A stretch of 64,000 bases of DNA from Siphonodentalium dalli (taxonomy: Eukaryota; Mollusca; Scaphopoda; Gadilida; Siphonodentaliidae). Below the pieces are notes generated by a model, which was not told where the DNA came from, made no database searches, and was given only the letters and a program-made list of their open reading frames with translations. The stretch is from positions 266,159,426 through 266,223,425 of the forward strand of contig CP136063.1 of NCBI GenBank assembly GCA_032622095.1, written 5' to 3'. Of this stretch, positions 3,917-61,420 are shown one piece after another (position 1 is the first letter of the stretch; the number at the start of each line of letters is the position of its first letter). Both the position numbers and the translations under genes were made by a program.

Positions 3917-4303
3917 TTAACCCTTTACCCAACAAACCGGCCAAAACCGGACAAATATAGCTTCAACAGCCTAAAATATCTTCGGTCTGTCTCAATAGAA
4001 CCATACAAATATGGATATCATTGGAACCGGCTCCTTGACCACATTGTGATAGTTACAGTTATGCCCTGTGCCAATGCATTCTCTTATATATGCGAGTCGA
4101 CCATAGGTCGCCTCGCATATATAAGAGAATGCATTGGCCTAAACAAAATCTTTTTTTAACACTTCTTACATTCTTTAACAATTTTATAATTTTTAATGTG
4201 TTAAGCCAATGCATTCTCTTATATATGCGAGGCGACCTATGGTCGACTCGCATATATAAGAGAATGCATTGGCACAGGACCCTTCTGTTGGGTAAAGGGT
4301 TAA
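3917..4303 (-). mobile_element. Twin-hairpin element, outer family P1, copy A
   Basis: Flanked by TTAA (3917-3920, 4300-4303), with terminal inverted repeat TTAACCCTTTACCCAACA. It contains two 69-bp palindromes (4070-4138 and 4205-4273) in inverted orientation around an AT-rich spacer. A longer arm (3935-4063) lies on one side and carries no palindrome. The strand is given relative to copy E at 15867. CCC-type ends after TTAA resemble piggyBac-like termini, which is family knowledge rather than proof. No transposase gene is present. Short open frames across the palindromes are artefacts. Confidence 0.88.
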
Positions 4304-4639
4304 TGTTTGGTCGACTTGATCATCTACGATAATTATCGATTATGATTGCATTACCCATTTATGATGAATAAAAAGCGTTTTGAAGACATGCTTTGTGCTT
4401 GTTCTCACATTTGGGTGTCTAATCGGGTTTGACTTCTCATTAATCTGAGAAAGGGAGCGACCTATTTCAGGAACGTAGTCAGTTATCATATGTTGGTGGG
4501 GCGGAGGGAGATTTCGACCACCCCGTGAACCAACCTTTTTCCCAACTTGACAAATTTTCATTTCCACGCCCTCGATATTGAGTTAGAATTCCAACGCATG
4601 ACTATTTAAATCTACAATAGATTTGAAAAAACAAAAACA

Positions 4640-5345
4640 AAATATTTTGTACGCTAAATATTGTTTGGGAAATTGAACTATTGAAACAATCTCAAACAGT
4701 TTTTGCCTAAAATATTCAGCTGATGTTATCCAAATGTTATAGCGTTTGACCAAAATCGTTTGGGGATGACGCCCCAACCCCATGTTGTGACATCCCTGTT
4801 TTGCACATGCACTGTTTACAATAATTGTTCCAACTCACGTTGCCTCAGACTTGAAAATCATTACTGCCAGTGACGTGCCGATAAGAGTATCTGTGTCATC
4901 CCACCCCATAACTTTGACGAAAATATTCAACAGCTGGGAATTTCAGACTATCGAAATGATCTCAAACAGTTTTTGCCTAAAATATTCAACTTAAGTTATT
5001 GATAAGTTTGACCAAAATTGGGAGGGGTAATACATGAAACCCATGTCGCCACATAACTTTTTTTGCACATAATTGACCATAATTGTTGCAATTGACATTC
5101 TCTCAGACTTGAAAATCCTTACTAACAGGGACGTGCCAACAAGTGGGGGTCGTCTTGTTCGTGCCATATCATGGTTTGACCAAAATGTTCAAAAGTTGGT
5201 AATTTCATAGCTGCCACGACAACACAAACTATCACAATAATTTCAATTCTTTTCTGGTCTGAAAATTCCAACTAATGTGTCAAGCTCGACCTCTTCGACT
5301 ATTGAAAATGCTGAACGTGAAATGATGGGTATGAAACGCCCCACC
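4640..5345. repeat. Degenerate tandem repeat, period about 250 bp
   Basis: Diverged units repeat the order TTTTTGCCTAAAATATTCA, a TTTGACCAAAAT phrase, CCCATGT-GACAT, TTTGCACAT, then CAGACTTGAAAATC. Copies are recognisable at about 4690-4880, 4960-5130 and 5170-5340. Identity is low, so the array is old. It fills most of the space between twin-hairpin copies A and B. No coding signal. Confidence 0.55.
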
Positions 5346-5386
5346 CAATCACCACGTCTCTGCCTTTGGTAACATCCCTGTCATTG

Positions 5387-5648
5387 TTAACCCTTGGACG
5401 ACGGGAGCTGCGCTAGGACAGCATTAATATACTGTGACCGTGCATTCTATTATATATGCGAGTCTCACACAGGGAGCCTCACATATATAAAAGAATGCAC
5501 TGGCTTACAAGATCAAGGTAAATATTGTTAGGCCAATGCATTCTCTTATATATGCGAGGCGCCCTATGGCCGATTCGCATATATATGAAAATGCATTGGC
5601 ACAGGGTTTTCGCAAAATTCAGGAAGCTCCTGTCATGAAAGGGCTTAA
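5387..5648 (+). mobile_element. Twin-hairpin element, outer family P4, copy B
   Basis: TTAA occurs at 5387-5390 and 5645-5648, with termini of the TTAACCCTT...GAC / GTCATGAAAGGG...TTAA type. There are two diverged palindromes, about 5438-5504 and 5532-5600, around a short spacer. The right palindrome exits through GGCACAGGG into TTTTCGC, the same exit as the copies near 28.8 and 42.8 kb. The sequence is more decayed than family P1, suggesting an older insertion. Confidence 0.78.
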
Positions 5649-6254
5649 ATGCAGCGTCGTATATATGAGGCCAGGGATTAGTGACAGGATGGCACCAGAA
5701 GCATGAGAATGCCGCTCGGGATAAAACATTATATCGCCAATTATTACCAAAATTAGACATAATTATATGTAGGCATCAGCATGGGTATATAATGGCGTTC
5801 AAAGTTGTCATAGCGATACCAATGTCTTATCTAGACTACCCCACCCAGATAGGCATTATTTTAACAGTAATCGGGAATATTAAAACTATTCCCAAGTATT
5901 GTCAAGATAACATACCATTCCCACCAGCGAAATTCGAGATAAACGAATAAAGACGTTATGTATAAGATATTCCCCGAGATATTCGGAAAAATAATTCACC
6001 GAGGCGAAGCCGATGTATTTATTTGGCCGAATACCCGACAGCTTGGGGAATATTAGGCTTAAACCCAGCGTCATGACGGTTATTAAATCCACATGCCTCT
6101 TATCCGATACCACTAGATTCCTGGAAAATAATCCGTTCGACATTCATTGAATGAATGAATGCTTTATTGCGAAGACCCAAATTAATGCGTAACATGCAAA
6201 ACATATATACAATATTTTATATACAATATATACATGATGAAAATGAGGGGAGCA
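5649..6254. other. No gene recognised
   Basis: Several overlapping open frames of 60-93 codons occur on both strands. None shows a domain or convincing composition. Confidence 0.4.
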
Positions 6255-7889
6255 TCTCACTTTGCCGACGGCTATTGTTTCCGGGGGTACCTGCACGAGG
6301 TGGCAATAATCCCTTACTTCAATCATTTGCCGCTTATAGTCTATTCCTCTTTTCTTTTGGTGTTTTAATGGTTTGTCCTCTCTTTGTCAATTTGGGAACG
6401 AGGGTTTTGGAACCTTTGGTGCTGATTCAATGTTGATGTCAGGAAATAATCTATGTCATGTTTTATCTATTTATTGATTCAAAATAATTAATAAAATACC
6501 TACAATGAGATAACAAATACACGACAATACTTTAACAAAAAGCTCAATTGCGAACTAATTTAGCGATTGTATCTAAGTATTCAACAACGTCGATCTCGTT
6601 TTCCCTGAATATTCTCTTGAAATGTCTAAGAGACGCGTTGACCGCCCGATATTTCTTCTCTGTGGTTGAACTCTGCCGCTAAGTATCGTCGATTCTGTAT
6701 ATGCTTGGACTTTTTTAATATGGTCGATCATGTCGAATATATTTGGTTTTGAAGCTGCTATATAACCTTGAAGTTTTCTGTGCCACCCTTCGACGTGGTT
6801 TGTGGTCCAGGGCCGGTTGTATTATAGTGATTCCACATGGTACGACCTTCGTCACATTCAATCCACTGCATAGTCACATAATCGGAAAACTTTGTCACGC
6901 GGTCGTCGATTGGGCGGTCTGTTGTTTCCATATATTCTTCCCATTCTTCTAGTACATTGAGCCAAGCATCGCTCAACTGGTCGACGGGGACGAATGGTAA
7001 AGCGATGGCACGTCGAATTAAGTTCCTTATCTCTGAATCTGGTTCGTCATACTCTGCCTTCAAATGACACGTGACTGTAGCATACTTATATATGCACTGG
7101 CTGTAGTGAAACATGCACCATTTGAGTTGCGTTGTTGGAAAAATGTCTTTAATCGCGTTCTGTGCCGCCTTCTCGTAGTCTGTGCGGACAGACTTCTTGA
7201 TATCTGCGACGAAGGCATCAACCATAACCTGTTAAAAATAAATAAAATTAGATTTGATGTCTATTTTTTTGTATATAGATATATCAGTTAAATATTATTA
7301 TAAATTAGAACGCTCTTTATTGTCTGGCGTTTTGTTTAGAGAAGAATGGATGCTCTTTATAAGAATTTGAAATAAGAAAATACATGTGTCGTACCTGGTC
7401 AGAATCGGCTAGATGGTTGTGTTGACTCATTGCAGAACTAACTATCTCGTTCTTTGTGTTGATGGTGGCACCACAACCATTCTTACAACACACCCAGTGG
7501 ACATTCTCGGATCGACGTGACTTGATGCGGAATTTGAAGTCGTTGAAGACCAGGTGTTTGCCTCCTCGATTGTTGGCGATGAAGAATACATTTACTTGAG
7601 AACTTGCCATGATGAAGATAGAACATTGAATATGATCAACTTTGGAGAGACATGGGGGTTTTATAGCTCAATACGATCGCTCAATACGAATAACAGTTTA
7701 CTACTATTTCACTGAGTGAACATGAAAATCGCTCATCTGATGACGACTCACGTGAAACTCATTTAGCGGCATGCTAAAACAACATTGCAAACGGGAGCCT
7801 GGAAAACTGTTATTTAATTAATACAGACTATAGGCGCGACGATCACACCTTGCCGGCGATATTTTTGCAGGCTCGTCGGCAAAGTGAGA
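6255..7889 (-). mobile_element. Putative MULE transposon with 16-bp terminal inverted repeats
   Basis: TCTCACTTTGCCGACG at 6255-6270 is exactly reverse-complemented at 7874-7889. The pair brackets the FLYWCH/MULE-derived gene at 6544-7610. A 16-bp perfect inverted match placed symmetrically around a transposase-derived gene is unlikely to be chance, but I could not find the 9-bp target duplication expected for Mutator-like elements. The true ends could lie slightly outside these matches. Confidence 0.5.
6544..7610 (-). pseudogene. FLYWCH zinc finger plus MULE transposase remnant, two exons, frameshifted
   Basis: Exon 1 (7395-7610) starts at an ATG and encodes 72 residues forming a FLYWCH-type zinc finger: WVCCKNGC supplies the cysteines and SQHNH the histidines. 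It ends at CAG|GTACG, a good donor. Exon 2 begins after a T-rich tract ending in CAG (boundary 7228/7229), giving a 166-bp phase-0 intron. Exon 2 has the late MULE transposase signature TDYEKAAQNAI, then KWCMFHYSQ, a WN segment, and after a frameshift near 6812 an NHVEGWH motif. A second frameshift near 6660 leads to a YLDTIAKLV tail ending at TGA (6544-6546). The segment normally lying between the zinc finger and the TDYE motif, which carries the first catalytic aspartates, is absent. The product would be a DNA-binding protein without a working transposase. Family assignment is firm; loss of function is inferred. Confidence 0.82.
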
Positions 7890-8099
7890 ATAAGCCGAAA
7901 ATAGGACCCCTCCCTACAAACGTGTGGTTTGTTCTTCTTTTTTCCCCTTGTTCCTTATTTTGTTCTTTGAAAAATCGTGTAATCACATAAGTTATATTCT
8001 TCCTTATGTTTTCAATGTCATTTTGATTATCAGTTTGAATTATTGACCATGCAATGAGCTAATTCAGCTGCCTTCCACAATGTATATAATTAATTGAAA

Positions 8100-8671: not shown

Positions 8672-8950
8672 AAACAGAAAATTAAATAAACCTCAACAAT
8701 TTAACCCTTTACCCAACAGAACGGCCCTGTGCCAATGCATTCTCTTATATATGCGAGTCGACCATAGGTCGCCTCGCATATATAAGAGAATGCATTGGCT
8801 TAACACATATTAAAAATGATAAAATTGTCAAAGAATGTAGAAAAATATTATAAAAATTGTTAAAAAATGTAAGAAAAAATTATAAAATTGTTAAAGAATG
8901 TAAGAAAAAATGGTAAAAAGTGTTAAAAACAGAAAATTAAATAAACCTCA
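8672..8950. repeat. 24-bp direct repeats flanking a truncated twin-hairpin element
   Basis: An identical 24-bp AT-rich word ending AAATAAACCTCA occurs at 8672-8695 and again at 8927-8950, immediately outside copy C. This is far longer than the TTAA duplication of the family, so it points to a break-repair or template-switch event that removed the right half of the element. Confidence 0.7.
8701..8926 (+). mobile_element. Twin-hairpin element, outer family P1, copy C (truncated)
   Basis: The left end is TTAACCCTTTACCCAACAGA (8701-8720), followed by one palindrome (8731-8799) and an expanded AT-rich spacer with internal repetition of the TTATAAAATTGTTAAAGAAT type. The second palindrome and right terminus are missing. 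Confidence 0.82.
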
Positions 8951-9782: not shown

Positions 9783-10154
9783 TTAACCCTTTACCCGACA
9801 GAAGGGCCCTGTGCCAATGCATTCTCTTATATATGCGAGTCGACCATAGGTCGACCATAAGAGAATGCATTGGAAAAATTATAAAATTGTTAAAGAATTT
9901 AAGAAAAAATGGTAAAAAAAGTTTTTTTTTAGGCCAATGCATTCTCTTATATATGCGAGGCGACCTATGGTCGACTCGCATATATAAGAGAATGCATTGG
10001 CACAGGGCATAACTGTAACTATCACAATGTGGTCAAGGAGCCGGTTCCAATGATATCCATATTTGTATGGTTCTATTGAGACAGACCGAAGATATTTTAG
10101 GCTGTTGAAGCTTTAATTGGCCGGTTTTGGCCGTTTTGTTGGGTAAAGGGATAA
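9783..10154 (+). mobile_element. Twin-hairpin element, outer family P1, copy D
   Basis: The left TTAA is at 9783-9786; the right end reads GGGTAAAGGGATAA, a one-base change from the expected TTAA. The first palindrome (9813-9873) has lost part of its right arm. The second (9933-10001) is intact and leaves through GGCACAGGG into the long unpaired arm shared with copies A, E and F. Confidence 0.86.
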
Positions 10155-12048: not shown

Positions 12049-12522
12049 TTAACCCTTTCAGTGCCAGGGGCCGATCTCATCGACCCTAATTTACGGTCCG
12101 TAAAATCGGCCCTAAAAAAAATAAAAAATAAATGTGTTTTTTTTGTATTTTTTTTTTGGGGGTTGAATTATTTTTGGGCATACTATAGCGAATTTAAAAA
12201 CAAACTGGATAAAACCTTAGGGTCATGATATAACTCAAAACTATCACCGAGTATTCATAGTAATAAAATTTTGATGCCCATGAAAAACGTTAGATTCCCT
12301 GGCACTAAACCTACAAAATAAGTCTGTTAAAGATTATAAGAAAAAATTATTAAAATTGTAAAAAATTGTAAAAAATAATAACAAATGATGAAAAATTGTT
12401 AGGCCAATGCATTCTCTTATATATGCGAGTCGACCATAGGTCGACTCGCATATATAAGAGAATGCATTGGCACAGGGTATATGGTTTGATACAAAAATCG
12501 GACCTGGCACTGAAAGGGTTAA
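12049..12522 (-). mobile_element. Hairpin element, outer family P2, copy G
   Basis: TTAA at 12049-12052 and 12519-12522, with terminal inverted repeat TTAACCCTTTCAGTGCCAGG. It contains one palindrome (12403-12471), and this copy is symmetric to the centre (33-bp arms around ATA). A 180-bp non-palindromic segment (about 12130-12310) recurs in reverse orientation at 61230-61390. The palindrome exits through GGCACAGGG into TATATGG. Confidence 0.86.
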
Positions 12523-14935: not shown

Positions 14936-14937
14936 TG

Positions 14938-15857: not shown

Positions 15858-15866
15858 TGCGTGAAC

Positions 15867-16256
15867 TTAACCCTTTACCCAACAGAAGGGCCCTGTGCCA
15901 ATGCATTCTCTTATATATGCAAGTCGACCATAGGTCGCCTCGCATATATAAGAGAATGCATTGGCTTAACACATTAAAAATTATAAAATTGTTAAAGAAT
16001 GTAAGAAAAAGTGTTTAAAAAAGATTTTTTTTAGGCCAATGCATTCTCTTATATATGCGAGGCGACCTATGGTCGACTCGCATATATAAGAGAATGCATT
16101 GGCACAGGGCATAACTGTAACTATCACAATGTGGTCAAGGAGCCGGTTCCAATGATATCCATATTTGTATGGTTCTATTGAGACAGACCGAAGATATTTT
16201 AGGCTGTTGAAGCTTTATTTGGCCGGTTTTGGCCGTTTTGTTGGGTAAAGGGTTAA
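15867..16256 (+). mobile_element. Twin-hairpin element, outer family P1, copy E
   Basis: TTAA at 15867-15870 and 16253-16256. Palindromes lie at 15897-15965 and 16035-16103 with an AT spacer. The long right arm runs from CATAACTGTAACTATC to TTGGGTAAAGGGTTAA. This is the best-preserved copy and serves as reference orientation for the family. Confidence 0.9.
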
Positions 16257-17272: not shown

Positions 17273-18002
17273 TTCAAAGGACCGAATGGCCTTCGCGGTG
17301 GATATACTGTTAAAATAGTCACACCAATTACAACTGCAATAAACAGAAAGAATATTAAAATATAGACGTATTTTGTTCGTATATATGTGACCCGCCATAT
17401 CAAATCCAGTCGTAAGTCGGGATTTTTTTACCCTGTGCCAAAGCTTTTTCTTATATATGCGAGTCAACCATAGGTCGCCTCGCATATATAAGAGAATGCA
17501 TTGGCCTAACAATTTTTTATCATTTTTTTAAAATAAATTTTTCTTACAATTTCTAGGACATAAAATAAAAAACATCCATTACCCGCAGGGAGCCCCACAC
17601 ATATATAGAAGCATATAGAAGAGTGTCGTCTGCTCATGTTTGTCTGGGGCTCTGTATGGGTGAAATTATAAAATTGTTAAAGAATACAAGAAATAATTAT
17701 TAAAATTGTAAAAAAATGGTCGACTCGCATATATAAGAGAATGCATTGGCACAGGATAAAAAAAATCCCGACTTACGACTGGATTTGATATGGCGGGTCA
17801 CATATATCAGTCATAAACATCGCGTAAACTTACATAACAAAGCGTATGAACTTGACAATAACAGACCTTTTACGTGGTATTTATGATTGGTATATAAGAA
17901 CTAATTTTTTCTATATTTAAATATTATTTCTGCTTATGGCGGTTTGAACAGATGTGACTATTTTAGCAGCATACCCACCATGATGGCCATCCGTGCCTTT
18001 AA
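17273..18002 (+). mobile_element. TTAA-flanked family T1, copy 2, split by a nested element
   Basis: The left part (about 17273-17386) and right part (17802-18002) match the left and right ends of the copy at 33-561 in the same orientation, including TTCTGCTTATGGCGGTTTGA and AGCATACCCACC. The centre is replaced by the P3 hairpin element at 17387-17801. The right TTAA (17999-18002) is also the left TTAA of the next element. Confidence 0.72.
17387..17801 (-). mobile_element. Hairpin element, outer family P3, copy 1 (nested)
   Basis: Terminal inverted repeat GTGACCCGCCATATC, continuing through a 45-bp arm to CCCTGTGCC. ATATAT lies immediately outside both ends and may be the target duplication. 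The first palindrome is at 17437-17505; only the right half of the second remains (17717-17750). Between them is an AT-rich spacer and an inner stem of GAGCCCC/GGGGCTC (17590-17652). It is inverted relative to the copy at 40388. Confidence 0.85.
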
Positions 18003-18281
18003 CCCTTTGAGTGCCTGGTCCGATTTTTGTATCAACCCATATACCCTGTGCCAATGCATTCTCTTATATATGCGAGTCGACCATAGGTCGCCTCGCATAT
18101 ATAAGAGAATGCATTGGCCTAACAATTTTGCATTATTTGTTATTATATTTTACAATTTTTTACAATTTTAACATTTTTTTTAAAATCTAAAAACAAAAAA
18201 CAAAAATTCTTTTTTTAGGGCCGATTTTACAGACCGTAAATTAGGGCCGATGAGATCGGCCCCTGGCACTGAAAGGGTTAA
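17999..18281 (+). mobile_element. Hairpin element, outer family P2, copy H
   Basis: TTAA at 17999-18002 and 18278-18281, with ends TTAACCCTTTGAGTGCCTGG and the reverse of TTAACCCTTTCAGTGCCAGG. One palindrome (18050-18118) is entered through ATATACCCTGTGCC. It abuts the T1 copy to its left through a shared TTAA. Confidence 0.86.
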
Positions 18282-20649: not shown

Positions 20650-23600
20650 ATGGATAACATATGTATCGGCACTTGGAATGCTACAGGTATTTTTGGTAGC
20701 AGTGCATACCTCAGTCGGTTACTTCGCGATGAAGCTATAGATATATTCGGAGTAAGTGAGCACTGGCTCCATAGTCATAACGTTCAATTCTTAGAGTCTA
20801 TTCATCGGCGTTACTCATATCACGCGGTGTGCGATGCCTCCCAGCGCCTTCCTCTACAAAGAGGACGATACAAAGGCGGTGTTTGTTTATTTTGGCACAA
20901 ACGGTATGATACAATAGTCTCCGCTATAGACTACAATGACGATCGTATATGTGGCATTCAAATGCAACTTTCTCGGTGCAACTTCTTATACGTTTTCCAA
21001 GTGTATCTCCCATCCACAAATTATTCTGTTGAATTTTACAGAGAGTATATACAGAAAGTCTCAGACCTGATAACCTTATATTCTCCACTTGGCAACGTTG
21101 TTGTTCTAGGTGACTTCAATGGAAACCTACGGAAGACCGATGCCAGAAATCGCAGTTTCCAATTAATGCTCAAAGCACAAAATTATGTTTCTGCAAATAG
21201 CTCCGAAAAGTGTGATGGTCAACAATTCACATACGTGGCTGTAGACGGAACAGGTGGCACCACCATCTATCACATCATCATACATAAAGATGACCTGGTC
21301 AGAACCAAACGTATTGCTGTGCTCGATGATGATGCCTCCAATGTTTCGAATCACAGACCTATACTCATGGATATCTCGTATGGCAATGTACGCGATTGCA
21401 CGAACACAACACAATCTGCTTGTTGGAATTGGAAAAAACTTATCGCCGATCAGGAATTATTATCATGTTATAGATTAAATGTAATGTCATTGTTACCAGA
21501 ATGTCATATATATGATGAGACGGATTTGGCAATGTGCTATGATAGAACAGTTTCAGCTATACAAAGCGCTTCAAATATAGCCATTCCAAAGAAATCCTTC
21601 AAGCCATATTTGAAACCAATTTGGAACCCCACGTTGAACAATCTACACCGTGAAATGCGCCATTTTCGAAGAATATGGCTGTCAGACGGACGCCCCAGAG
21701 GCGATACATTCGAAACGTATGCAAACTACAAAGCCTCGAAACGTATGTTCAGAAAAGAAATGCGTAAATGTAACTCGCAGTTCATGTCCGCTCAGAACGA
21801 GGAAATAGACCGCGCCGCCGAAGTTGATCAAGAGTTATTTTTCAAAAAATTTAACGCAGTGCGAGCAAGTAGGAAAGGTGCGTGTAATAGTATATTTGAA
21901 GTAAACGGTTCCATGCTTCGAACTCCGATTGAAATCTCAGATGCATGGGCCGATTATTATGAAAACTTATACTCACCTTTGAAATCAGTTAACTTTGACG
22001 AATCACACTTTTTAGAAGTCAATAGCAAGGTGACCGATCTCCTCAGTAATTCAAACACCGGGACATATGACAAAATATTAACCTACCCCGTCACTGATGT
22101 AGAACTTATGAACGTTATGAAAACTGTCAATATGGGGAAAGCTGCGGGTCATGATTCCATCTGCTATGAACACATTTTGTATGGCGGTACGCACTTACAT
22201 AAGCACATTGCCAAGCTTCTATCATCCATGCTCAACTTGTCATATATACCAACCCATGCAAAAATTGGTGTGATAACTTCCCTATATAAAGGAGGTGACA
22301 AACAAAAGACAAAGTTCGACAGTTATAGGGCAATAACGCTACTGCCAGTATTATACAAGCTCCTGGAGAAAGTTTTTCTTGCTCGCATTGAACGAAATTG
22401 TCCACATTTGATCGTAACACATCCACTGCAACATGGGTTTCAAAAGAACATTAGTTGCCTGATGTCATCTTACATAGTCCAAGAAGGTTTATCATATGCT
22501 TTAGAACAAAACTCTCGATTATTCGCATGTTTCCTGGACGTTCACAAAGCGTTCGACACTGTTTGGACTAATGGTCTACTATTCAAACTTTTCGAGCGCG
22601 GTTTCACTGGGAAAACCTGGAAACTTTGTCACAACTTTCTAACAGGGGTAACATGCTCTGTTCGACACGAGGGCCGGAACTCTAGAGATATCACCATTAA
22701 GCAAGGAGCAAGGCAGGGGAGTACCTTATCGCCGATATTTTACGCAATTTACATCGACGAGGTGTTACGCGAGCTACAGCTGTCTAACTTTGGTCTTAAA
22801 CTTCTTGGAATAAACCTCGCATCCCCAACACAAGCCGACGATATGACACTGTTATCTTTTACTGCATACGGTCTTCAACGCCTATGTGACATATGCAGTG
22901 CATACAGTAGCAGGTGGAGATTCCTATATAATGAACAAAAATGTAAAGTTATTGTCTTTGATGAGAAAACAGCAAAGACATCAACCAACCGCTCTTGGCT
23001 CATTAATAGTGGTTTGATCACAGAGACTGATACCATTACCCATCTTGGTATTACATTACATAAAACAAATTTCCAAAACGAACTTACCGAGTCGATATGC
23101 ACGAAAATTCGCTCAACGTACCTCATGCTTAGCAATGCTGGCCTGTACGCCGGTGGGATAACCCCACAAAGTTGCATGACTATGTATCAATCGATTGTTC
23201 TTTCTCGGGGCTTGTATGGATCAGAATTTTTATGTAACACCACATGTTCAAATGCGACCAAACTAGAAAGAATACATCGCTTTTGTCTTAAGCGCATACA
23301 AGGTCTTTCCATGAGATGCAGAACTGACATTGTACTTGGTCTAGTAGGGAGTTTCCCCTTGGAATCGACAATCGCTATGAGGAAACTCTCCTTATTCGGT
23401 GGACTATGTCGCGCCCCTCAATCGAAAGCATGTAAGCAGATTTTTGTTAGACGACTCCACGAATTTAGAGCCAATCAGTCCCAGGATTACTCTTTTATAA
23501 GTGAACTGTGCTCTTTATTTGAAAAATATAACATGAATGATGTTTTCGTGGACTATGTGAAATCCTGGATCTCTATTCCAAAATTGGCATGGAAGAAACG

Positions 23601-24183
23601 CACTAGGGCAGAGGTACACGCCGTAAATGAAACTTCATGGAAATCAAATGTTATGACTGATCCTTCTTTCAGTCGCTTCTGCAGAATCCAGGAATCCCTT
23701 CACATGTCTAACTTGTGGCGTTTATGTCGGAAATTTCCCGAAAACAAATCCGCATATTTCACAGTAGCTCGGGTTATTGAATCATCGGCGTCCCTCGAAG
23801 CAGGAATTTGCCCGCTATGTGGAAAGTCATACACCGACAAAATTATGCACATCCTTATTGAGTGCAACGCCCTGGTTAACATACGCAATGACATGTTCTA
23901 TGCATTAATTGACCAATACGGATTGCAATTATTTATCTCTGTCGAAGAACTGTCTCCTGACGATATGATATCATTACACTTATCCCAAGTCCACGATAGC
24001 TTGGTAGAAGCAATTGACTGTACTGACTCGTTTATAAACTTTATTGTCACTGTCACTGAACAGTTGTGGCAAACATACAGTTTTATAGCTCAACGAAAAC
24101 ACATTCTAACACAGTTAGAAATCGGCATTAATCTTGCTAACACACCACTAGGCGAGCCTTTAACTAACTTTGAACCGCCGTGA
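20650..24183 (+). CDS. Retrotransposon ORF2: endonuclease and reverse transcriptase
   Basis: A single open frame of 1177 codons. Residues 1-245 form an APE-like endonuclease: TWNATG (N10), SEHW (E37), GDFN (D155, N157). The later motifs read TTIYHI (Y207, usually Asp) and SNHRPI (N234, usually Asp), so two expected catalytic acids are replaced. Reverse transcriptase spans roughly 535-800: FLDVHKAFDTVW (D629), GARQGSTLSPIFYAIYID, and TQADDM (D729, D730), so the polymerase triad is intact. The C-terminus has a CPLCG...H...C knuckle near 1054-1075. Length fits a complete ORF2. The ATG is the first codon before the endonuclease fold. It would nick target DNA and prime reverse transcription; the altered endonuclease suggests this copy may be nicking-deficient. 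No frameshifts or stops, so the insertion is fairly young. Confidence 0.93.
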   Translation: MDNICIGTWNATGIFGSSAYLSRLLRDEAIDIFGVSEHWLHSHNVQFLESIHRRYSYHAVCDASQRLPLQRGRYKGGVCLFWHKRYDTIVSAIDYNDDRICGIQMQLSRCNFLYVFQVYLPSTNYSVEFYREYIQKVSDLITLYSPLGNVVVLGDFNGNLRKTDARNRSFQLMLKAQNYVSANSSEKCDGQQFTYVAVDGTGGTTIYHIIIHKDDLVRTKRIAVLDDDASNVSNHRPILMDISYGNVRDCTNTTQSACWNWKKLIADQELLSCYRLNVMSLLPECHIYDETDLAMCYDRTVSAIQSASNIAIPKKSFKPYLKPIWNPTLNNLHREMRHFRRIWLSDGRPRGDTFETYANYKASKRMFRKEMRKCNSQFMSAQNEEIDRAAEVDQELFFKKFNAVRASRKGACNSIFEVNGSMLRTPIEISDAWADYYENLYSPLKSVNFDESHFLEVNSKVTDLLSNSNTGTYDKILTYPVTDVELMNVMKTVNMGKAAGHDSICYEHILYGGTHLHKHIAKLLSSMLNLSYIPTHAKIGVITSLYKGGDKQKTKFDSYRAITLLPVLYKLLEKVFLARIERNCPHLIVTHPLQHGFQKNISCLMSSYIVQEGLSYALEQNSRLFACFLDVHKAFDTVWTNGLLFKLFERGFTGKTWKLCHNFLTGVTCSVRHEGRNSRDITIKQGARQGSTLSPIFYAIYIDEVLRELQLSNFGLKLLGINLASPTQADDMTLLSFTAYGLQRLCDICSAYSSRWRFLYNEQKCKVIVFDEKTAKTSTNRSWLINSGLITETDTITHLGITLHKTNFQNELTESICTKIRSTYLMLSNAGLYAGGITPQSCMTMYQSIVLSRGLYGSEFLCNTTCSNATKLERIHRFCLKRIQGLSMRCRTDIVLGLVGSFPLESTIAMRKLSLFGGLCRAPQSKACKQIFVRRLHEFRANQSQDYSFISELCSLFEKYNMNDVFVDYVKSWISIPKLAWKKRTRAEVHAVNETSWKSNVMTDPSFSRFCRIQESLHMSNLWRLCRKFPENKSAYFTVARVIESSASLEAGICPLCGKSYTDKIMHILIECNALVNIRNDMFYALIDQYGLQLFISVEELSPDDMISLHLSQVHDSLVEAIDCTDSFINFIVTVTEQLWQTYSFIAQRKHILTQLEIGINLANTPLGEPLTNFEPP

Positions 24184-28576: not shown

Positions 28577-28838
28577 ATATCCCTTCCATGATGGGATCAG
28601 CACAGCAGATGCAGAATTAAAGATCATGTGACAGGAATTCTCTTATATATGCGCGTCTCCCATAGGCAGCCTCGCATATACCAGAGAATGCACTGGCTTA
28701 TAGTCATGGTAAATATTGTTAAGATTATGCATTCTCTTAATATGCATCTCATATGAGAGACTCACATATATATAAGATAATGCATTGGCACACATGGTTT
28801 TCGCTAAATTTTAGGTAGCTCCAGCCAAGGAAGGGATA
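28577..28838 (+). mobile_element. Hairpin element, outer family P4, copy K (decayed)
   Basis: The ends read ATCCCTTCCATGATGGG and CCAAGGAAGGGAT, degenerate versions of TTAACCCTTTCATGAC. Two palindrome relics lie near 28632-28698 and 28728-28789. The interior shares TTAAAGATCATGTG with copy M at 42634. Clearly older than families P1-P3. Confidence 0.65.
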
Positions 28839-29489
28839 ATAAAGGGCCACAAGTTCCCAAATAAGGTGGCTTTGTTTGACAATGTATTTTCGTATGATTA
28901 ATCCACATAGTAAATTTGAAAGGTATCGGATAATCATAATTTGAGTTAACATCCAGACAACAAAATAATCATCAAATTCTACATGTACTCGTCAATGATT
29001 ATTTAGTACAGAAAGGGTTAATGACTGTATATTCGCTGGCGAGCAAGCTCGCAATATTGTGTATGTCATTTGCAGAATGAGGTCCCCAGATCATGAATTT
29101 AGTGACACTATCCTGCCCAGCAGGCTAGCATCTCCAAATTCACACTCTGAGAACTTCATTCAGCTTAAGCCTCAACTGCTATGGGAGACATAGGATCCCA
29201 TTGACTTTCCCCAGTTGAAGTTGGTAATGTTCACCCATTAGTTACTTTGATTATGCATTTTATCTTCTGCAAATTAGGGGATATAGAAAATATTCTAAGA
29301 AGGAAAAAAGTAACTAAAATGAATGTTAATTTGAGACTACAGATATTTCCCAGATGAGGCCTAAGCAGAATGATAATACTATCGGTGCTGATATGTCGAT
29401 GAATTACTGTTCTGATGCCAGTCAGAGTGCTTGGTGATAAGTTTATGCCTTGATTTTTGGTTTCACTTAAGTTCAGTTTAGCATAGAAA
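28839..29489. other. No gene; partial foldback copy
   Basis: 29056-29165 resembles the left arm of the 26678 foldback (CATTTGCAGAATGAGG, then a CCTGCCCAGCAGGCTAGCAT hairpin). AAGGGTTAA at 29014-29022 may be an orphan end of a TTAA element. Nothing coding. Confidence 0.45.
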
Positions 29490-36654: not shown

Positions 36655-36871
36655 TGCATCACTTCCATGACAGCAGTTTCCTGCACGTTTTTTTCGAAAA
36701 CCCTATGCAAATGCATGCTCGTATATATGCGAGTCTCAACACAATTACATTGTGAGCCAGTGAATTATCTTATATATGAGAGGCTCCCTATGGGAGACTC
36801 GCATATATAAGATATTGCAGTGGCACATGATATTTAATGCACTAGCGGGGCCCCCGTTATGAAAGGGTTAA
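36655..36871 (-). mobile_element. Hairpin element, outer family P4, copy L (in left arm)
   Basis: AAGGGTTAA at the right (TTAA 36868-36871); the left end has decayed. Two palindrome relics remain. It corresponds base for base to copy M in the right arm, so it predates the arm duplication. Confidence 0.68.
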
Positions 36872-39740: not shown

Positions 39741-40387
39741 TTGGACTATATGTTGTACGGATTGAAGAGCTACTGTGAGCATCAAACTCGCATCACTAAT
39801 GAGGCAAACATACTTCTATCTTCGGCTGTTCAAAACTACATTACATCATTAAATCGATTCGGCAATGAGTTAATCGACTAGGTAAATACCAAAGTACCTG
39901 CTGACATATCTCCGTAATATATAAACCTTCGAGTCAACTATTTAATTGGGCAATCTCACACGACTTCCCCGTTAATTAAATTTTGGGCTGAAGTTTCTTA
40001 TAGAATATCAATCGTGCTTCCAGTTTAGGGATAAACTTCATTTTTACCATTTTAATTGGTCGGCCAAATGAAATCCTCAATGCTGGCATCGTGACAAACA
40101 CATGTCCGTGCTCAACTGTGCTTTCTGGATGAGTAACCGACACTGATTAAGGTTATCGAGAAATGACGTTAATGGATAATTATGTGACAACTGCTTGACA
40201 GTATTTCGTGAAATAATCTTTTAATTCCATTATTGCGTATAAGTAGGACATGTTGTGTCACATATATCTGTTGTTGTGCAATTCCATACGTTTCTTTTGT
40301 ATTGGTTGAAGTATGGATTAACTACTTACCAGTTAACACTGGTAATGAACAATCATAGTCATCCTCGGCCTCGTGCTTAAAATATAT
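39741..40387. other. No gene recognised
   Basis: Spacer sequence inside the 7.3-kb structure. Confidence 0.35.
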
Positions 40388-40846
40388 GACCCGCCATATC
40401 AAATCCAGTCGTAAGTCGGGATTTGTTTTACCCTGTGTCAATGCATTCTCTTATATACGCGAGTCGACCATAGGTTGCCTCGCATATATAAGAGAATGCA
40501 TTGGCCTAACAATTTTTTACAATTTTAATAATTTGTTCTTGTATTCTTTAACAATTTTATAATTTCACCCATACAGAGCCCCAGACAAACATGAGCAGAC
40601 GACACTCTTCTATATGCTTCTATATATGTGTGGGGCTCCCTGCAGGGTAATGGATGTTTTTTTATTTTATGTTCTAAAAATTGTAAGAAACATTTATTTT
40701 AAAAAAAATGATAAAAACATTGTTAGGCCAATGCATTCTCTTATATATGCGAGGCGACCTATGGTCGACTCGCATATATAAGAGAATGCATTGGCACAGG
40801 GTAAAACAAATCCTGACTTACGACTGGATTTGATATGGCGGGTGAC
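40388..40846 (+). mobile_element. Twin-hairpin element, outer family P3, copy 2
   Basis: Ends GACCCGCCATATC / GATATGGCGGGT, with ATATAT directly outside on both sides (40382-40387, 40847-40852). Intact palindromes at 40437-40505 and 40727-40795. The spacer includes an inner stem GGGGCTC/GAGCCCC. It is a full-length relative of the nested copy at 17387, which is inverted and has lost half a palindrome. Confidence 0.9.
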
Positions 40847-40852
40847 ATATAT

Positions 40853-41883: not shown

Positions 41884-43418
41884 ATTCAAAAGAGGAGCAG
41901 ATTACGTTGTTCGTTCCCCTCCCCTCCATTCTAATCCTCTTTGTTAATCTGGATTTTTTTTTCCCAGTCAGTCCGCGCAGATATCTGGGCCATGGGCTAT
42001 CGGAATGAATTTGAATGAATTTTGGTATGTATGTTCGCCATCAAGACTGATTTAAGAAGAGTGCCCAAATTGGGTTATTTCCATTTTCCGTTCTAGAGTT
42101 ATCCCCTTTGTTTATATTAGATTTGGTTTCGTCCTGCCCATGTTTCAATTGGCACCGTGGACTATGTCATATTTCGAGGTACTACTTATTGTTTTAGTTT
42201 TCGGTAAATTATCCATTTATGGATGTTGGAAATGCACATCTCCAGATATAATATCATCAAATATCTAATTTAACATTGTTTTCTGCTTAGTGTTAACATT
42301 TTTGTTATTGAAATATAAACCAAAATATTATTTTGCGTCCCTCTAAAACAGCAAAACGTTATGAAGTAAATGCCTACAAAATTCACTATCAAACACAATA
42401 GCGTCTTTTGAATGTCTCGCTCCAAACATGCTATTTTACATACTATGCTCCAAATAAAAGCTGAAATGTGTTTCGGAAAAAGCCCTGAATACATATTTAA
42501 CCAAAACATGTTGCATTAATTATACCATTAACTCATAGCGGTTCATGTTCATCCCAACGGTCATTCAAATCTGACAAAAGGGATTGGGGTGTACGTTTTG
42601 TCAACTTATGAAGCCCCTCTCCGTTACAATTTATTAACCCTTTCATGACGAGGGCCGCGCTGATGCAACATTAAAGATCATGTGCCAGTGCTATCTCTTA
42701 TATAAGCGAGTATCCCCATAGGGAGCCTCCAACATATAAGAGAATGCACTGGCTTTCAATGTCATTGTAATTTTTCTTAGGAGACTCGCATATATACGAG
42801 AATGCATTGTAACGGGGTTTTCGAAAAACAAATGCAGGAAACTGCAGTCATGGAAGTGATGCACACACACATTGACAAGGTGATGGTTCAACATATTACA
42901 TGCATGATTTGTGATATTATGGTGTTTTGTATAGGATTGTGCTATGTCTTCCAGAGCACATTGCCATGCGTTATGATTGATTTGCTAGCCCGAGTTGGTG
43001 GAGTTTTGTGGTTGTTCGTTTCACTATACCCCCGTAACGTGTTACTGTGGGTATATATTAAATAGCTTGTCCGTCCGTGGATTTAACTTTGTTGATGGTC
43101 GAGTTATCCCCCTTTTTTTACTTAAAATGTTTCACAACTCGCTCAATATTGTCCGAGCTTGTATTCCTACATTTTTTCAGTCAAGCTTTTTAAAAACTTG
43201 GCACAGTTATTGAGTGCCATGGAAACCTATGCACCTGTGATTGTCAGATCCGTCCGACTTTTTTAGTCGAGTTATCCCCCTTTTTCGACTTAAGACAAAA
43301 ACAAATATGTTAATATGGCGACAAATCACTTAATGTAGCCCGATTGCACTGCGGTAGTATCCTTAATCCCATTGGGAAGGTCCCCCTCCAGTTTGAACTG
43401 GTATGAGACCAGGGTTAA
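41884..43418 (-). repeat. Right arm of the large inverted repeat
   Basis: Reverse complement of 36120-38297 minus its two insertions. The outer edge is CTGGTATGAGACCAGGGTTA ending at the TTAA 43415-43418. Confidence 0.8.
42634..42861 (+). mobile_element. Hairpin element, outer family P4, copy M (in right arm)
   Basis: Left end TTAACCCTTTCATGACGAGG (TTAA 42634-42637); right end decayed around CAGTCATGGAAGTGATG. Two eroded palindromes. Mirror partner of copy L. Confidence 0.7.
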
Positions 43419-47090: not shown

Positions 47091-47287
47091 AAAACATCCC
47101 CACCCCTATTTTTAGCTCAACTTTACTTTGTAAAGTTTGAGCTATTGCCATGGCTTTGTCGTCCGTGTGTATGTGTGTACGTAAGGCGTCAACAATGCAG
47201 GCTACAGGTCGTACCTTTGGTCGGATCATTGTGAAATTTGTCATAGCTGTTGACATCTATAGGAGGCCAAATTCACATTTAATAATC

Positions 47288-47447
47288 AATTGCGCTTAAG
47301 CGCAATCAATTGCGCTTAAGCGCAATCAATTGCGCTTAAGCGCAATCATTGCGCTTAAGCGCAATCAATTACGCTTAAGCGCAATCATTTGCGCTTAAGC
47401 GCAATCAATTGCGCTTAAGCACAATTAATTGCGCTTAAGCGCAATTC
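47288..47447. repeat. Tandem run of TTGCGCTTAAGCGCAA, 20-bp period
   Basis: Eight units, each a perfect or near-perfect palindrome, joined by TCAA. Confidence 0.92.
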
Positions 47448-47964
47448 ATGGTTATATGTAACAAAACACCCCTGGTGAATAAATAGGTTTCTCCATAACT
47501 TAGCATTAATTCCTATTGACATGTCACTTCTTGGTTTCATTGGTTTGGATGGGTAGGGAGCTAGCCCAACTTCTTTATCAAAATGGCTGACTCGCAATAG
47601 TATCACCTTCTGTTTTAGTTGGAGCGATTCGTGATAGCATTATATTATCTTCGGTATATATTAGTTGGGGCTACTTGCAATAGCATTACTTTCTGTATTA
47701 GTCGGGGCGACATTGATTTTCTTCAATTTTCGAGTATACAGGCACACCATATGAGGGAAGCAAGCCCTCGGTGACACCACATTCACACTATATGATCATG
47801 GAAATACTATAGATTTGTGCAAGAGCTGCTGATTTAATAAGAAAAACTAGAGCTTCAGGACTGAGACACCAAAGCTCCAGTAATTACACACCATTTTTTG
47901 GACAGGGATGCTGATAATATGAAAATAGGGTTTTTTCCCCCTGATTTAAGTCAATAAGTAAACC

Positions 47965-48180
47965 ATACAGTAATGCTCTAATTAATCGACTCCTTAACCA
48001 CAGCAGAATTATGGATAACTTTTCAGGATTTAGTCGGAAATATGGCTTGTTGCCATTCATCGGAAAGCTCTCGAGAGCTTTTCGATGAATGGCAACAAGC
48101 CATATTTCCAACTAAATCCTGAAAAGTTACCCATAATTCTGCTGTGGTTAAGAAGTCGATTAAATAGAGCATTACTGTAT
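47965..48180. repeat. 216-bp near-perfect palindrome without a spacer
   Basis: Arms of about 107 bp meet at AGCTCTCGAGAGCT (centre 48072/48073). Only a handful of mismatches or single-base indels are visible. Around it, 47750-47840 and 48180-48260 are diverged direct copies of each other. Confidence 0.88.
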
Positions 48181-48489
48181 GAGGTAAGAAAGCCCTCATG
48201 CAGTGACAACGCATGCATGTATAGGATATTACCATAGTAAAGGCTAAAATCTGTGCAAAAATACATTAAAAACATCATACAAAACATTACTAGAGTTCCG
48301 GGAAGGCGACATCAATTCTTTGGATAGAGCGATGCTGATAATATGTAATTAGGGGATTCTCCTTGTTGAACACATACTCACAGTTTGACTGTTGAGTACA
48401 GGTCAAAATTAGCCCAATGCTCATCTTGTGTTGCTAGGTGATACACCAGGTCATGCTAATAGTTCATGGGTAGGTTAGATAGTAGTCAC

Positions 48490-48615
48490 AATTGCGCTTA
48501 AGCGCAATTGATTGCGCTTAAGCGCAATTGGTTGCGCTTAAGTGCAATTAATTGCGCTTAAGCGTAAATACCCTATTTGCACTTAAGCACAATATGTGGT
48601 ATTAGCGCTTAAGCG
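48490..48615. repeat. Second run of GCGCTTAAGCGCAATTG units
   Basis: Five to six units of the same 16-mer palindrome, more diverged than the left run, mirroring it at the other end of the inserted element. Confidence 0.88.
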
Positions 48616-51590: not shown

Positions 51591-51618
51591 TTAGTAGGTC
51601 TTTATGTAAGCATGATGT

Positions 51619-57448: not shown

Positions 57449-57455
57449 GGACAAC

Positions 57456-58190: not shown

Positions 58191-59352
58191 AGTACTGCAA
58201 AACTCCCAAACGTACATAATTACATGACGGTAAAAATGGACATCGGTCTACATCGGTTGTTTTGACCATATAGGCTCCTAATTTTATCGATATTGTGCAA
58301 AGTCTAAGGAAATTATTGCCAATACGAATCCCATCACGAGAAACGCACATATGACGTGTAGTATTGGGAGTATATGGTAATCGAAATGTCACTGTCATGA
58401 GAGTCAAGCGCGTGGGAGTATCACTGTTCTGGCCCTTGGTTTTACTGGTTATTTCGATGATGAGGGAACAGATTGCATATGTGACCCAGATGGTTGGTTG
58501 ATACTTTGATTTCTGACAGTAATAACGGTGAATGACGTCATATGATTTTTCTATACAATCAGCTCAAATTCGGAATGGGTATATTTTTTTATCTTATCAA
58601 GTGACTTTCGATCAGTAACTGTGTGGATGTTGCCAAAGCGCGGACCCGGCAATGGATGAAAATAAAATGGGCTCGTTCACAACTTTAGTACAAACCTATG
58701 TGATTTAGGCCTCTTGGATTCATTTATACCAATTTCGTTGGGTAGCTGAACACAAGCGACGACGTCATGACATGATTCCTGACGTCAATTGGCTTTGCGG
58801 ACCAGAACCCAGATTGCACTTGTCATATCGTCTCCTCCGGGCCACTGATTTCGCCTCACTGGACTAGACATATATACCCAGACACGCTCCAATTACTATA
58901 GCAAGGGGCATTCATCTAGATGGTCTGCCGGTACCGCGTAATATGTTCCGAATTTGGAAAAAATCTTATTTAATGTATAAGACTTTGATAAACCTTTTCA
59001 GAGTAAATGGAGTCTATATATATTAGTTTCCTGCATTCATCGACCTATTGTAATTACCGGAACATGTCAAAAGTGCGAGATTAGTAGTTTTATTTCGAGG
59101 ACTGAAATGTATGAGTCGCCTCAATGAGAGGCGAGAGGTGTGTCGGCATGTGGGTGGGCTGGGGAGTCTCAATGTTCCAACACGGATGTTGAATTTGGTG
59201 AAGGTACTGCCGCCAGCACCAGTGCGGTGACGAGAACCAATCCGGCCACAGCAAACAGAGATTTACTTGTTAATACAATGGCGATAAGAAGAATAAAAAT
59301 ACACAGAGAAAAAACAGATGCTTCATGCAATGAACATATTTCCCCGATTACC
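58191..59352. other. No gene recognised
   Basis: 1.1 kb without identifiable domains or repeats. An 84-codon plus frame ends inside the next transposon. Confidence 0.4.
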
Positions 59353-59752
59353 TTAACCCTTTACCCAACAAATCGGCCAAAAACGCCCAAATAAAGCTTC
59401 AACAGCCTAAAATATCTTGGTTATGTCTCAATAGAACCATACACATATGGATATCATTGGAACCGGCTCATTTGCCACATTGTGATGGTTACAGTTATGC
59501 CCTGTGCCAATGCATTCTCTTATATATGCGAGTCGACCATAGGTCGCCTCGCATATATAAGAGAATGCATTGGCCTAAAAAAAATCTTTTTTTAACACTT
59601 TTTACCATTTTTTCTTACATTCTTTGACAATTTTATAATTTTTAATGTGTTAAGCCAATGCATTCTCTTATATATGCGAGGCGACCTATGGTCGACTCGC
59701 ATATATAAGAGAATGCATTGGCACAGGGCCGTTCTGTTGGGTAAAGGGTTAA
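59353..59752 (-). mobile_element. Twin-hairpin element, outer family P1, copy F
   Basis: TTAA at 59353-59356 and 59749-59752. Palindromes at 59506-59574 and 59654-59722. Same orientation as copy A. Nearly full identity in the palindromes, while the long arm shows several substitutions (ATGTCTCAATAGAACC region). Confidence 0.9.
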
Positions 59753-59887
59753 AGGAGAAAATGAGCACCACCAATAGCCGATATACCACCAGGCAATTGG
59801 GTGGATTTATTGGTTGATTTTTAATGAATTTGAAGAAAAGTGATTGGACCGATTGCGAACATGACAGTTTGGCGACATGCCGGTATT

Positions 59888-60345
59888 CCATATTAAATGA
59901 GAGGTTTAGGAAATAAGCCGCGGAAGGCTGGTGTGCTGTCTGGTGAAGATGAGGAAAAGTTGTGGACAATCGGACAATTTGGGCTGACCGAGCCAACATC
60001 TCTTCTTCGTCTTGTTTGGTTTAATAACACCAAAATTACTAGGTTTTCGCGGTTTTCGCGAGAATCGACAGTTAAAGCGTTGAGACATTGAATTGAACAT
60101 TGAGAAAACGACTGAATATCTAGAGTTTGATGAAAGACTGAGCAAGACTAAATATTGGGAGAATGCAAACAACATTCGCCAATTCAATTTCAAAATTTTC
60201 GCGAGTGTTCAGATGATCGATGTCAAGTTACGGCTTACAAAATGTATGCTGCCAATAGGCCATGGTCGTTGTGTACAACTGTGTCCCCCATTATATATCG
60301 CAGCCAATTAAAGCTATGGTTTGATCCAAACAGCGCTAATGTTTA
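59888..60345 (+). pseudogene. Crypton-type DUF3504 recombinase remnant (KIAA1958/ZMYM-like)
   Basis: The plus strand encodes GNKPRKAGVLSGEDEEKLW, then GQFGLTEPTSLLRLVWFNNTK, matching the start of the DUF3504 domain found in Crypton-derived proteins. After a break around 60050-60095, where the domain's conserved FGFRG...EH segment should be, another frame gives EYLEFDERLSKTK..ENANNIRQFNFKIFAS, and a third gives RCQVTAYKMYAANRPWSLC..SP. All three blocks occur in the expected order over 450 bp, so this is one decayed copy with at least two frameshifts. DUF3504 is a tyrosine-recombinase relative; the catalytic Arg region is damaged. Flanks show no element ends. Confidence 0.75.
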
Positions 60346-60574
60346 AAGCGCAGCCAGTCGTCTTTAATACACTTAGAACATGGCAAACAAGGGAGGACTG
60401 AAGGGGAAAATTACAAACCATTCGCTGTGGAAGACCATGTGTACGTGACTGTTGCATGAACCCATAAATAATCGCGCAATTGTCAGGACATAAAAATTTA
60501 AAGAGTTTGGACAATTATGGCGTGGCATCCACACAACAGATGTGCAGTAGCTTACATGTTTGAAAATTCCTCTA
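60346..60574. other. No gene recognised
   Basis: Spacer before the T1 element. Confidence 0.35.
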
Positions 60575-61100
60575 TTAAAGATACGGGCTGTGTTGGCGGT
60601 GGGTATGCTGTTAAAATATTCACCTCCGTCAAAAACCACCATAAACAGAAATAATAGTAAAATATAGACATACTTTGTTCTCATACAATCAGAAATATGA
60701 CATAAACAGTATGATATTGTCAAATGTTTTATCCTTTGTTATGTAAACAAAAGCAAAAAATGTTATAGAACCTGGCTTTTGTTTAGATCCGGATATGGTA
60801 AACATAAAGTGCGATATTTGTTACTGTTTTCCTGATATGGAAATAATAAAGAGCGTTTATATCATTTGTGTGTGATTAACCAATAGAATTGCGCTGTGTT
60901 ATGTAAACAGAAGCAAAACTTCTGTAACACGAGCAGGGGTCTTGTTTACGTACACCATCGTACGTCTTGACGACAATATACTAGTTACGCGCTGATTATG
61001 TTTGGCATATAAACAATATATATATTTTAATATACCTTCTGTTGATGGCGATTTGAACAAATATGAATATTTCTGCAACGAACGCCACCCGTGCGTTTAA
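60575..61100 (-). mobile_element. TTAA family T1, copy 3 (reverse orientation)
   Basis: TTAA at 60575-60578 and 61097-61100. The interior is the reverse complement of 33-561 nearly throughout. Good agreement of length and ends makes these two copies the reference pair. Its last TTAA is shared with the next element. Confidence 0.82.
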
Positions 61101-61420
61101 CCCTTTCAGTGCCAAGTCCGATTTTTGTATCAACCCATATACCCTGTGCCAATGCATTCTCTTATATATGCGATGCCTCGCATATATAAGAGAATGCAAT
61201 GGCCTAACAATTTTTTAAATTAACTCTTTCAGTGCCAGACTTATTTTTGTAGGTTTAGTGCCAGGGAATCTTACGTTTTTCATGGGCATCAAAATTATTA
61301 CTATGAATACTTGGTGATAGTTTTGAGTTATAACGTGCCCCTAAGGTTTTATCCAGTTTGTTTTTAAATTCGCTATAGCATGCTTAAGCATACCCAAAAA
61401 AAAAACAACGATGCATTTGG
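61097..61420 (+). mobile_element. Hairpin element, outer family P2, copies I/J (rearranged)
   Basis: Starts TTAACCCTTTCAGTGCC (61097) and contains a palindrome shortened at its loop (61148-61203). It then meets a second start, TTAACTCTTTCAGTGCC (61220), followed by a segment matching copy G's interior in reverse (AGTGCCAGGGAATCTTACG, GAATACTTGGTGATAG). No right terminus. It abruptly joins LINE sequence near 61420. Confidence 0.7.

Follow-up and report, generated by a model that had tools for sequence, protein, structure and literature searches.

A palindromic core within at least four end-families of miniature elements in the scaphopod Siphonodentalium dalli

We have analysed a stretch of 64,000 nucleotides from Siphonodentalium dalli (GenBank assembly GCA_032622095.1, contig CP136063.1, positions 266,159,426 to 266,223,425; referred to here as the window), which is part of contig 3 of a genome of 2.23 Gb in 9 contigs. 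The short elements that recur in it are non-autonomous miniature inverted-repeat transposable elements (MITEs) of at least four end-families, P1 to P4, built around one palindromic core. The core is best read as a passenger or a cis-acting part of these elements, not as an independent mobile unit. We think it probable that an old P4 lineage gave rise to it, that one founder each of P1, P2 and P3 acquired it in a single capture, and that transposases matching the outer ends then multiplied it in each case.

The palindromic core and the elements that carry it

The unit of the core is a 69-bp palindrome, GCCAATGCATTCTCTTATATATGCGAGTCGACCATAGGTCGCCTCGCATATATAAGAGAATGCATTGGC, which lies inside short elements with differing ends and is present in one or two copies with an AT-rich spacer. 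In its full form the core runs from CCCTGT and the first palindrome through the spacer to an inverted palindrome and ACAGGG, with inverted repeat arms of 78–80 nt; in P2 there is one palindrome only. CCCTGT adjoins the outer foot of each palindrome, and beyond it the sequence is specific to the family, the edge being sharp at CCCTGTGCC or GGCACAGGG. An exact 33-mer across this edge has 124,021 matches in the genome (62,118 + 61,903), and its reversed control has 0. The 69-mer folds as a single hairpin (−35.4 kcal/mol, z = −15.6) and in a complete cassette with two palindromes the fold extends from end to end (−103 kcal/mol, z = −25). A T.C mismatch makes the hairpin asymmetric and so gives it an orientation, the GAGT side facing outward in 120 of the 121 full palindromes assigned on one side; the exception, at 12403 of the window, has no orientation because its palindrome is symmetric. 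A known RNA family was rejected for the palindrome, as a scan of the window against Rfam gave 0 matches at gathering score, and so was an origin from viral contigs, a 27-mer search of which gave 0 matches.

By blastn the window holds 24 palindrome units or partial units, 14 of them 69 bp, spread over 14 elements or fragments (positions are those of the window):

3917..4303, reverse strand: P1 element, TTAA on both sides; palindromes 4070-4138 and 4205-4273, each 100% to consensus
5387..5647, forward strand: mixed P4 element; left old-core palindrome 5440-5504, right palindrome 5532-5600 nearer the new core, spacer 27 bp
8701..8799, forward strand: P1 left end and first palindrome 8731-8799; no right end by exact motif, probably truncated
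9783..10154, forward strand: P1 element; palindrome 9813-9873 internally deleted, 9933-10001 intact; right flank ATAA
12049..12522, forward strand: P2 element; one symmetric palindrome 12403-12471
15867..16256, forward strand: P1 element; palindromes 15897-15965 and 16035-16103; P1-type spacer
17387..17801, forward strand: P3 element; GTGACCC ends, target duplication ATAT; palindrome 17437-17505, half palindrome 17716-17750, central third hairpin
17999..18281, reverse strand: P2 element; one palindrome 18050-18118
28577..28840 (limits approximate), no strand given: degenerate P4 copy; two old-core palindromes 28637-28697 and 28727-28789
36655..36871 (limits approximate), no strand given: degenerate P4 copy; half palindrome 36707-36737, old-core palindrome 36756-36824
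40386..40846, forward strand: P3 element; target duplication ATAT; palindromes 40439-40505 and 40727-40795; 137-bp arms 95% complementary
42634..42860 (right limit approximate), forward strand: P4 copy; old-core palindromes 42684-42753 and 42780-42809
59353..59752, reverse strand: P1 element; palindromes 59506-59574 and 59654-59722, each 100%
61097..61203, reverse strand: P2 end; one palindrome, internally deleted, 61148-61203

A first-pass annotation of the window had described one pair of palindromes inside elements with four unrelated outer ends, each family being recognised by an end motif and by an inner switch next to the core. We find the core edge at 14 places in the window and all of the inner switches (CATAAC, TATATGG, TAAAAC and TTTTCGC). 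The end motifs are present for P1 at 3917, 8701, 9783, 15867 and 59353, for P2 at 12049 and 61097, for P3 at 17387 and for P4 at 42634; position 17999 has GAGTGCC and not CAGTGCC, 40388 has ATGACCC and not GTGACCC, and the degenerate P4 copies at 5387, 28577 and 36655 do not have the motif quoted for them. The claim of one palindrome pair throughout fails for P2, all three window copies of which carry a single palindrome, as do the core-bearing P2 copies read elsewhere (0 of 70 distinct two-palindrome elements, from 75 in all, are P2), and it fails for P4, in which 28577, 36655, 42634 and the left half of 5387 have a differing core that is GAGTCTCCCATAGGGAGCCTC-like and not GAGTCGACCATAGGTCGCCTC. 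To call the four ends unrelated was too strong, TTAACCCTTT and TTAA being common to P1, P2 and P4.

The main sample from the rest of the genome (loci L001-L060) was seeded by the exact palindrome 33-mer, for which the first 100 of the 124,021 places were listed; all of it comes from C1:0.11-5.93 Mb and duplicated segments are included. Palindromes and elements were assigned to families by fuzzy motifs. For the count of junctions 26 of 127 arms were dropped as duplicates, leaving 101 distinct flanks, and from the set of palindromes 4 of 209 matches were dropped at locus ends and then 29 of the 205 as duplicates. Arrays of ~14.56-kb and ~11.2-kb repeats carrying P1 and P2 elements are found at C1:735735-779435 and C1:820017-920855.

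P1, P2 and P4 are short, with no open reading frame noticed, and have in common TTAACCCTTT ends, which contain the terminal CC[C/T]T motif of piggyBac-type MITEs, and TTAA sites. Counted over the distinct ends of the main sample and the window, with motifs that leave out TTAA itself, TTAA precedes 55 of 61 P1, 28 of 34 P2 and 14 of 23 P4 ends. With motifs that contain TTAA and allow 3 changes, it stands on both sides of 27/32 P1, 19/23 P2 and 3/6 P4 pairs. TTAA is thus duplicated in all three, P4 being an old and degenerate family. P3 consists of a single long inverted repeat enclosing the spacer and has GTGACCC ends with a 4-bp target duplication, AWWT. The 4-mer before GTGACCC is ATAT, ATTT, AAAT or AATT at 22 of 24 distinct ends in the palindrome-chosen sample (TTAA 1, TAAT 1). 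When left and right P3 ends are paired, the two 4-mers agree in 14 of 19 cases and are then always ATAT, ATTT or AAAT; after removal of the duplicates L035 (of L029) and L036 (of L028) and of a second pairing, L085, they agree in 12 of 16. The pairs that do not match (L017, L047, L053 and L086) are rearranged or decayed copies. None of the 19 pairings has TTAA on both sides, and over all loci examined TTAA is found at 2 of 51 P3 ends. Because the target sites are TTAA in the one case and AWWT 4-mers in the other, the piggyBac-like families are P1, P2 and P4, to the exclusion of P3, and the earlier proposal that the outer families use different target sites is borne out.

Searched for exactly in the whole genome, the end motifs number 91,648 for P1, 38,786 for P2 (reversed control 4), 20,359 for P3 and 8,384 for P4. 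Part of the P4 motifs are clustered at distances that are multiples of 37 bp or close to them (C1:3257437-3273396, 4325740-4329315, 4907344-4924003 and 8446785-8448010), and perhaps form a minisatellite derived from the P4 end.

Junctions, spacers and the two types of core

The edge of the core persists in the wider sample. Of the 101 distinct arms 95 belong to P1–P4 and 6 are unassigned, and the junction is nearly constant in each family: the two bases outside CCC are GG in 30/30 left and TG in 16/18 right arms of P1, TA in 16/16 arms of P2 and 23/23 of P3, GA in 4/4 arms of P4a and AA in 3/4 of P4b. That one inner module with a common breakpoint lies within families of differing ends, as first proposed, therefore stands.

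The spacers follow the outer family. In the 28 P1 elements complete for arms and palindromes the spacer is of P1 type in 25 and of neither type in 3, the P3 hairpin being found in none, while 19 of 20 P3 elements have the P3 hairpin and one has neither. On these counts we rejected the idea that P1 and P3 have repeatedly swapped entire cores (P1 0/28 of P3 type, P3 19/20 its own). When 28 P1 elements are oriented by the long arm alone their spacers align as well, with a mean difference from consensus of 4.2%, and the core therefore has one orientation in P1. Nearly constant junctions together with a constant orientation are as expected from a single founder per family.

The palindrome consensus is identical at 69/69 bases in the P1 left (n = 32), P1 right (n = 18), P2 (n = 14) and P3 (n = 33) positions, and the mean numbers of changes per 69 from the family consensus are 0.34, 0.89, 0.86 and 1.21, respectively. 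In P1 the long outer arm differs from its consensus by 3.0% on average (median 1.4%) and the two palindromes by 0.7% and 2.1%; as both are little diverged, a recent burst of P1 is sufficient to account for them. The old-type palindromes of P4 are more diverged, with means of 4.0 and 5.0 changes per 69 (n = 3 each). Typed by the better blastn match, with duplicates kept, the palindromes with P4 ends divide into 19 old and 7 new ones, and the only other old-type palindrome with an assigned end is in L034, a scrambled P3 copy. Old P4 sequence is continuous across the edge, reading TCATGTGCCAGTGC where the new form has CCCTGTGCCAATGC.

A comparison of old and new cores by the states of their paired positions is circular, since the label is set by those positions, and the core pair was for this reason counted without labels. 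It is GA/TC in 94 of 110 palindromes of P1–P3, with TC/GA in 0, and in P4 it is TC/GA in 7 and GA/TC in 3 of 15. Over all 155 distinct full-length palindromes GA/TC is found in 105, TC/GA in 15 and TC/TC in 2, GA/GA not being among the states listed, and the T.C mismatch beside the core pairs is retained in 131. The prevalence of the two paired states over the one-sided TC/TC indicates that both sides changed together between the two types of core. Old copies are mixed at the outer pair (4,64), where no paired change is seen. In the palindromes of P1, P2 and P3 there are 78 one-sided changes and 0 paired ones; with the mismatch kept as it is, self-correction of the hairpin today was rejected.

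Origin of the composite elements

In the history that we favour, the core would have arisen inside the old P4 lineage, where the palindromes are older and more diverged and the sequence runs on across the edge. Founder copies of P1, P2 and P3 would each have taken it up once, probably during repair or replication; a core of two palindromes is a strand that snaps back on itself, with its own inverted repeat as the boundary, and DNA of this kind is prone to breaks and template switches. Each composite may then have been amplified by a transposase recognising its outer ends.

A number of observations weigh against this history. Its weakest step is the source, for which P4 is suggested by the sequence of few copies. 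The chimera L118, which has a P4 (P4a) left half joined through the core to a P3 right end, and the mixed P4 element at 5387 with one old and one new palindrome show that there is some recombination through the core, and the left and right end alleles of P1 are partly reassorted. Distances between the 28 P1 elements agree weakly for outer arm and spacer (r = 0.28, p = 0.06), so that congruence inside P1 is not demonstrated, and the correlation for outer arm and palindromes is 0.01. The exact seed biases the sampled palindromes towards identity. TA stands outside CCC in P3 (23/23), P2 (16/16) and 4 of the 6 unassigned arms, as would suit a core that was itself a transposon. Finally, no autonomous element with exact P1, P2 or P4 ends was found among 36 piggyBac loci (L061-L080, L141-L156), read with ~1.2-1.5 kb on each side of the domain so that farther ends would be missed, and several being copies of one family; an autonomous element with P3 ends was not found either. 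On the other side, the presence of piggyBac transposase frames speaks for this history, PF13843 (piggyBac transposase) having at least 128 matches in the genome, many in open frames of 500-720 amino acids. Several of the 36 loci have a TTAACCCTTT end, and the nearest single cousin ends are TTAACACGTTGAGTGCC (L061 and L065, P2-like) and TTAACTCTTTCATCACGG (L154, P4-like). None of the 36 carries the palindrome, and the idea that the palindromes are part of autonomous piggyBac elements was rejected.

It is possible, if rather doubtful, that the core plays a more active part, as a cis-acting parasite of transposition systems that is passed between transposases across target-site types (from TTAA to AWWT) and treats the ends as disposable, itself persisting. 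Such a core would raise its own amplification through hairpin-assisted excision, replication or repair, a role with which the preserved pairing described above (GA/TC 105 and TC/GA 15 of 155, TC/TC 2) is consistent.

We consider it unlikely that the core is instead homogenised across families by ongoing gene conversion or recombination, its identity being maintained and not the result of recent captures. The identical palindrome consensus of P1–P3 would be explained in this way, and the chimera L118, the mixed P4 element at 5387 and the partly reassorted P1 end alleles also fit, but the spacers of P1 and P3 do not cross, the outer arm of P1 is as young as noted above, so that a recent origin suffices, and the 78 one-sided against 0 paired changes speak against present correction inside the hairpins.

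That the core is a transposon with CCCTGTGCC as its terminal inverted repeat (TIR), which inserted or is still inserting into the centres of other elements, seems to us improbable. Its edges are sharp, it has inverted repeat arms of the length given, and a TA duplication would fit P3 (TTTTTA-core-TAAAAA), P2 and a few solo copies, but there is no TA at P1 (GG/TG) or P4 (GA/AA), contrary to what a Tc1/mariner element would leave. An element of piggyBac type consisting of the core itself was also rejected: TTAA directly followed by CCCTGTGCC occurs 356 times in the genome, and among the 100 of these that were listed no facing TTAA-flanked pair of core ends was seen by eye.

The search for empty P1 and P3 elements required exact anchors and allowed a gap no larger than 30 between them, so that altered copies would be missed. 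In the genome there is no clean empty P1, all 7 joins of left end and right arm within this gap retaining core bases. A further 1,427 P1 left ends in the genome lack the C of the core as their next base; none of the 20 read is empty, all 20 carrying palindrome sequence, with 17 being one-base variants of the first bases of the core and 3 being P1 long arms. At most one of the three facing P3 arm pairs within 30 bp in the genome is empty: one candidate retains CCCTGTGCC.GCACAGGG, one (L135) retains sequence of the P3 spacer and one has only T and A. Short P2 elements without the core do exist, and in 6 of the 7 read (L092-L097, L100) the arm reaches, by eye and on at least one side, CAACCCATA, the start of the core in core-bearing P2; the seventh differs from it by one base. 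Of the empty elements that the first-pass annotation had envisaged, those of P2 are thus present, with no clean case in P1 and one at most in P3. Its suggestion that the cassette still moves between elements is not borne out by these results, taken together with spacers that follow the outer family.

Copies of the core outside complete elements are few and mostly derived from P3, which also counts against a transposon of its own. T5A-core arms number 21,443 in the genome; among 100 that were listed, an exact P3 end is missing from the arm's own side in 59 and from both sides in 42. We read 20 solo loci containing 23 of those 42 arms (with the duplicate pairs L122/L125, L124/L129 and L132/L133). 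At 12 of them fuzzy matching showed a P3 end on one side or both, and a cut P3 arm was seen by eye at 4 more (L122 with its duplicate L125, L123 and L128); L126 (the L056 locus again), L131, L134 and L137 have no trace of P3 in the stretch read. The P3 arm is lost at varying points, often at its T-run. Since P3 ends or arms are found at most of the loci and the cut points vary, the majority of solo cores seem to be truncated P3 copies. At L056 and L026 the flanks match only themselves or a duplicate among the sampled loci and the window. One P3 copy, L140 (C1:8237586-8238210), has the 16-bp AAACATTCGGGAAATT on both sides and has lost its arm at the end that terminates in an A-run; these flanking repeats and the A-run suggest occasional copying by the machinery of long interspersed nuclear elements (LINEs).

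That the outer arms of a single ancestral element gave rise to P1–P4 by gradual divergence is very improbable: TTAACCCTTT and TTAA are common to three of the families and P4 shifts gradually across the edge (TCATGTGCC to CCCTGTGCC), but the palindromes are identical in consensus next to unrelated arms, P3 has other ends and another target site, and P2 has core-less relatives.

Relation to known elements and further observations

The closest likeness known to us is with the CMITEs of the coral Acropora, piggyBac-type MITE families which, in the part of the published account that we draw on, have differing TIRs (some CCCTTT...), TTAA sites and a common internal region that is more conserved than the TIRs, with tandem arrays and a core whose origin is unknown there (PMC2872659). 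They are ~100 bp long with a 75-bp core and an estimated 1600 copies in A. millepora (PMC2872659). A core conserved between families with differing TIRs is found here too, and on that account the statement of the first-pass annotation that no named element has this organisation was wrong in kind. As far as the same part of the account goes, the twin palindromes and a family not using TTAA are peculiar to the present elements, and the copy number is far larger here (more than 120,000 exact arms against the estimate of 1600). Old-core palindromes in tandem, which resemble the CMITE arrays described there, were seen in L007 (1147-1438, at 97-bp spacing) and L110 (105-342, at 79-bp spacing). A CMITE 60-mer compared by blastn with the sampled loci and the window (274 kb) gave no match, the best E value being 0.79.

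Piggy​Bac-type MITEs in general match P1, P2 and P4 in their TTAA sites, CCCTTT ends and shortness; the common palindromic core differs, and P3 falls outside this type. Foldback elements and palindromic MITEs have a snap-back structure, as do the elements here, in which, by contrast, the palindromes are internal and nested in a larger inverted repeat. Long, structurally dynamic inverted repeats are also a feature of Galileo of Drosophila in the partial description considered. Galileo is classed with the P elements by its transposase sequence, and the ends and target site here are of other types. No publication on the present element was recognised in the open papers searched, which does not exclude that one exists.

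New here are the sharing of a core across target-site types, the twin palindromes and the copy number. The ends of MITEs are explained by their autonomous partners, their interiors often not, and this has been the puzzle of their origin. With one interior, two target-site types, more than 120,000 exact arms and seemingly one founder junction each, the present system makes it possible to put directly the question of whether the interior contributes to amplification or is only carried along. Beside the coral CMITEs it is a second and far larger example.

Several further features were noted in passing. A further inverted-repeat element, at 17276-18000 of the window, encloses the P3 element at 17387 between its arms, which are 77% complementary. 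In L104 (C1:1657350-1658200, ~180-750) a P4 copy has its spacer expanded to a long AT-rich run of TTCTTACATTCTTTAACAATTTTATCATT-like repeats. L082 (C1:4495900-4497800) has at ~156-1405 an insert of ~1.2 kb with GC-rich inverted ends inside a P3 palindrome, with an open reading frame that matches Pfam Bcl-2 (E = 9e-11); L083 (C1:4549500-4551400) has a similar insert, and the core junction is the same in both loci. An array of TTGCGCTTAAGCGCAA palindromes occupies 47284-48567 of the window and includes a palindrome of 218 bp (47964-48181) with arms 95% complementary. The window also contains, at 20650-24183, an open reading frame of 1177 amino acids that is LINE-like, with matches to reverse transcriptase and endonuclease families.

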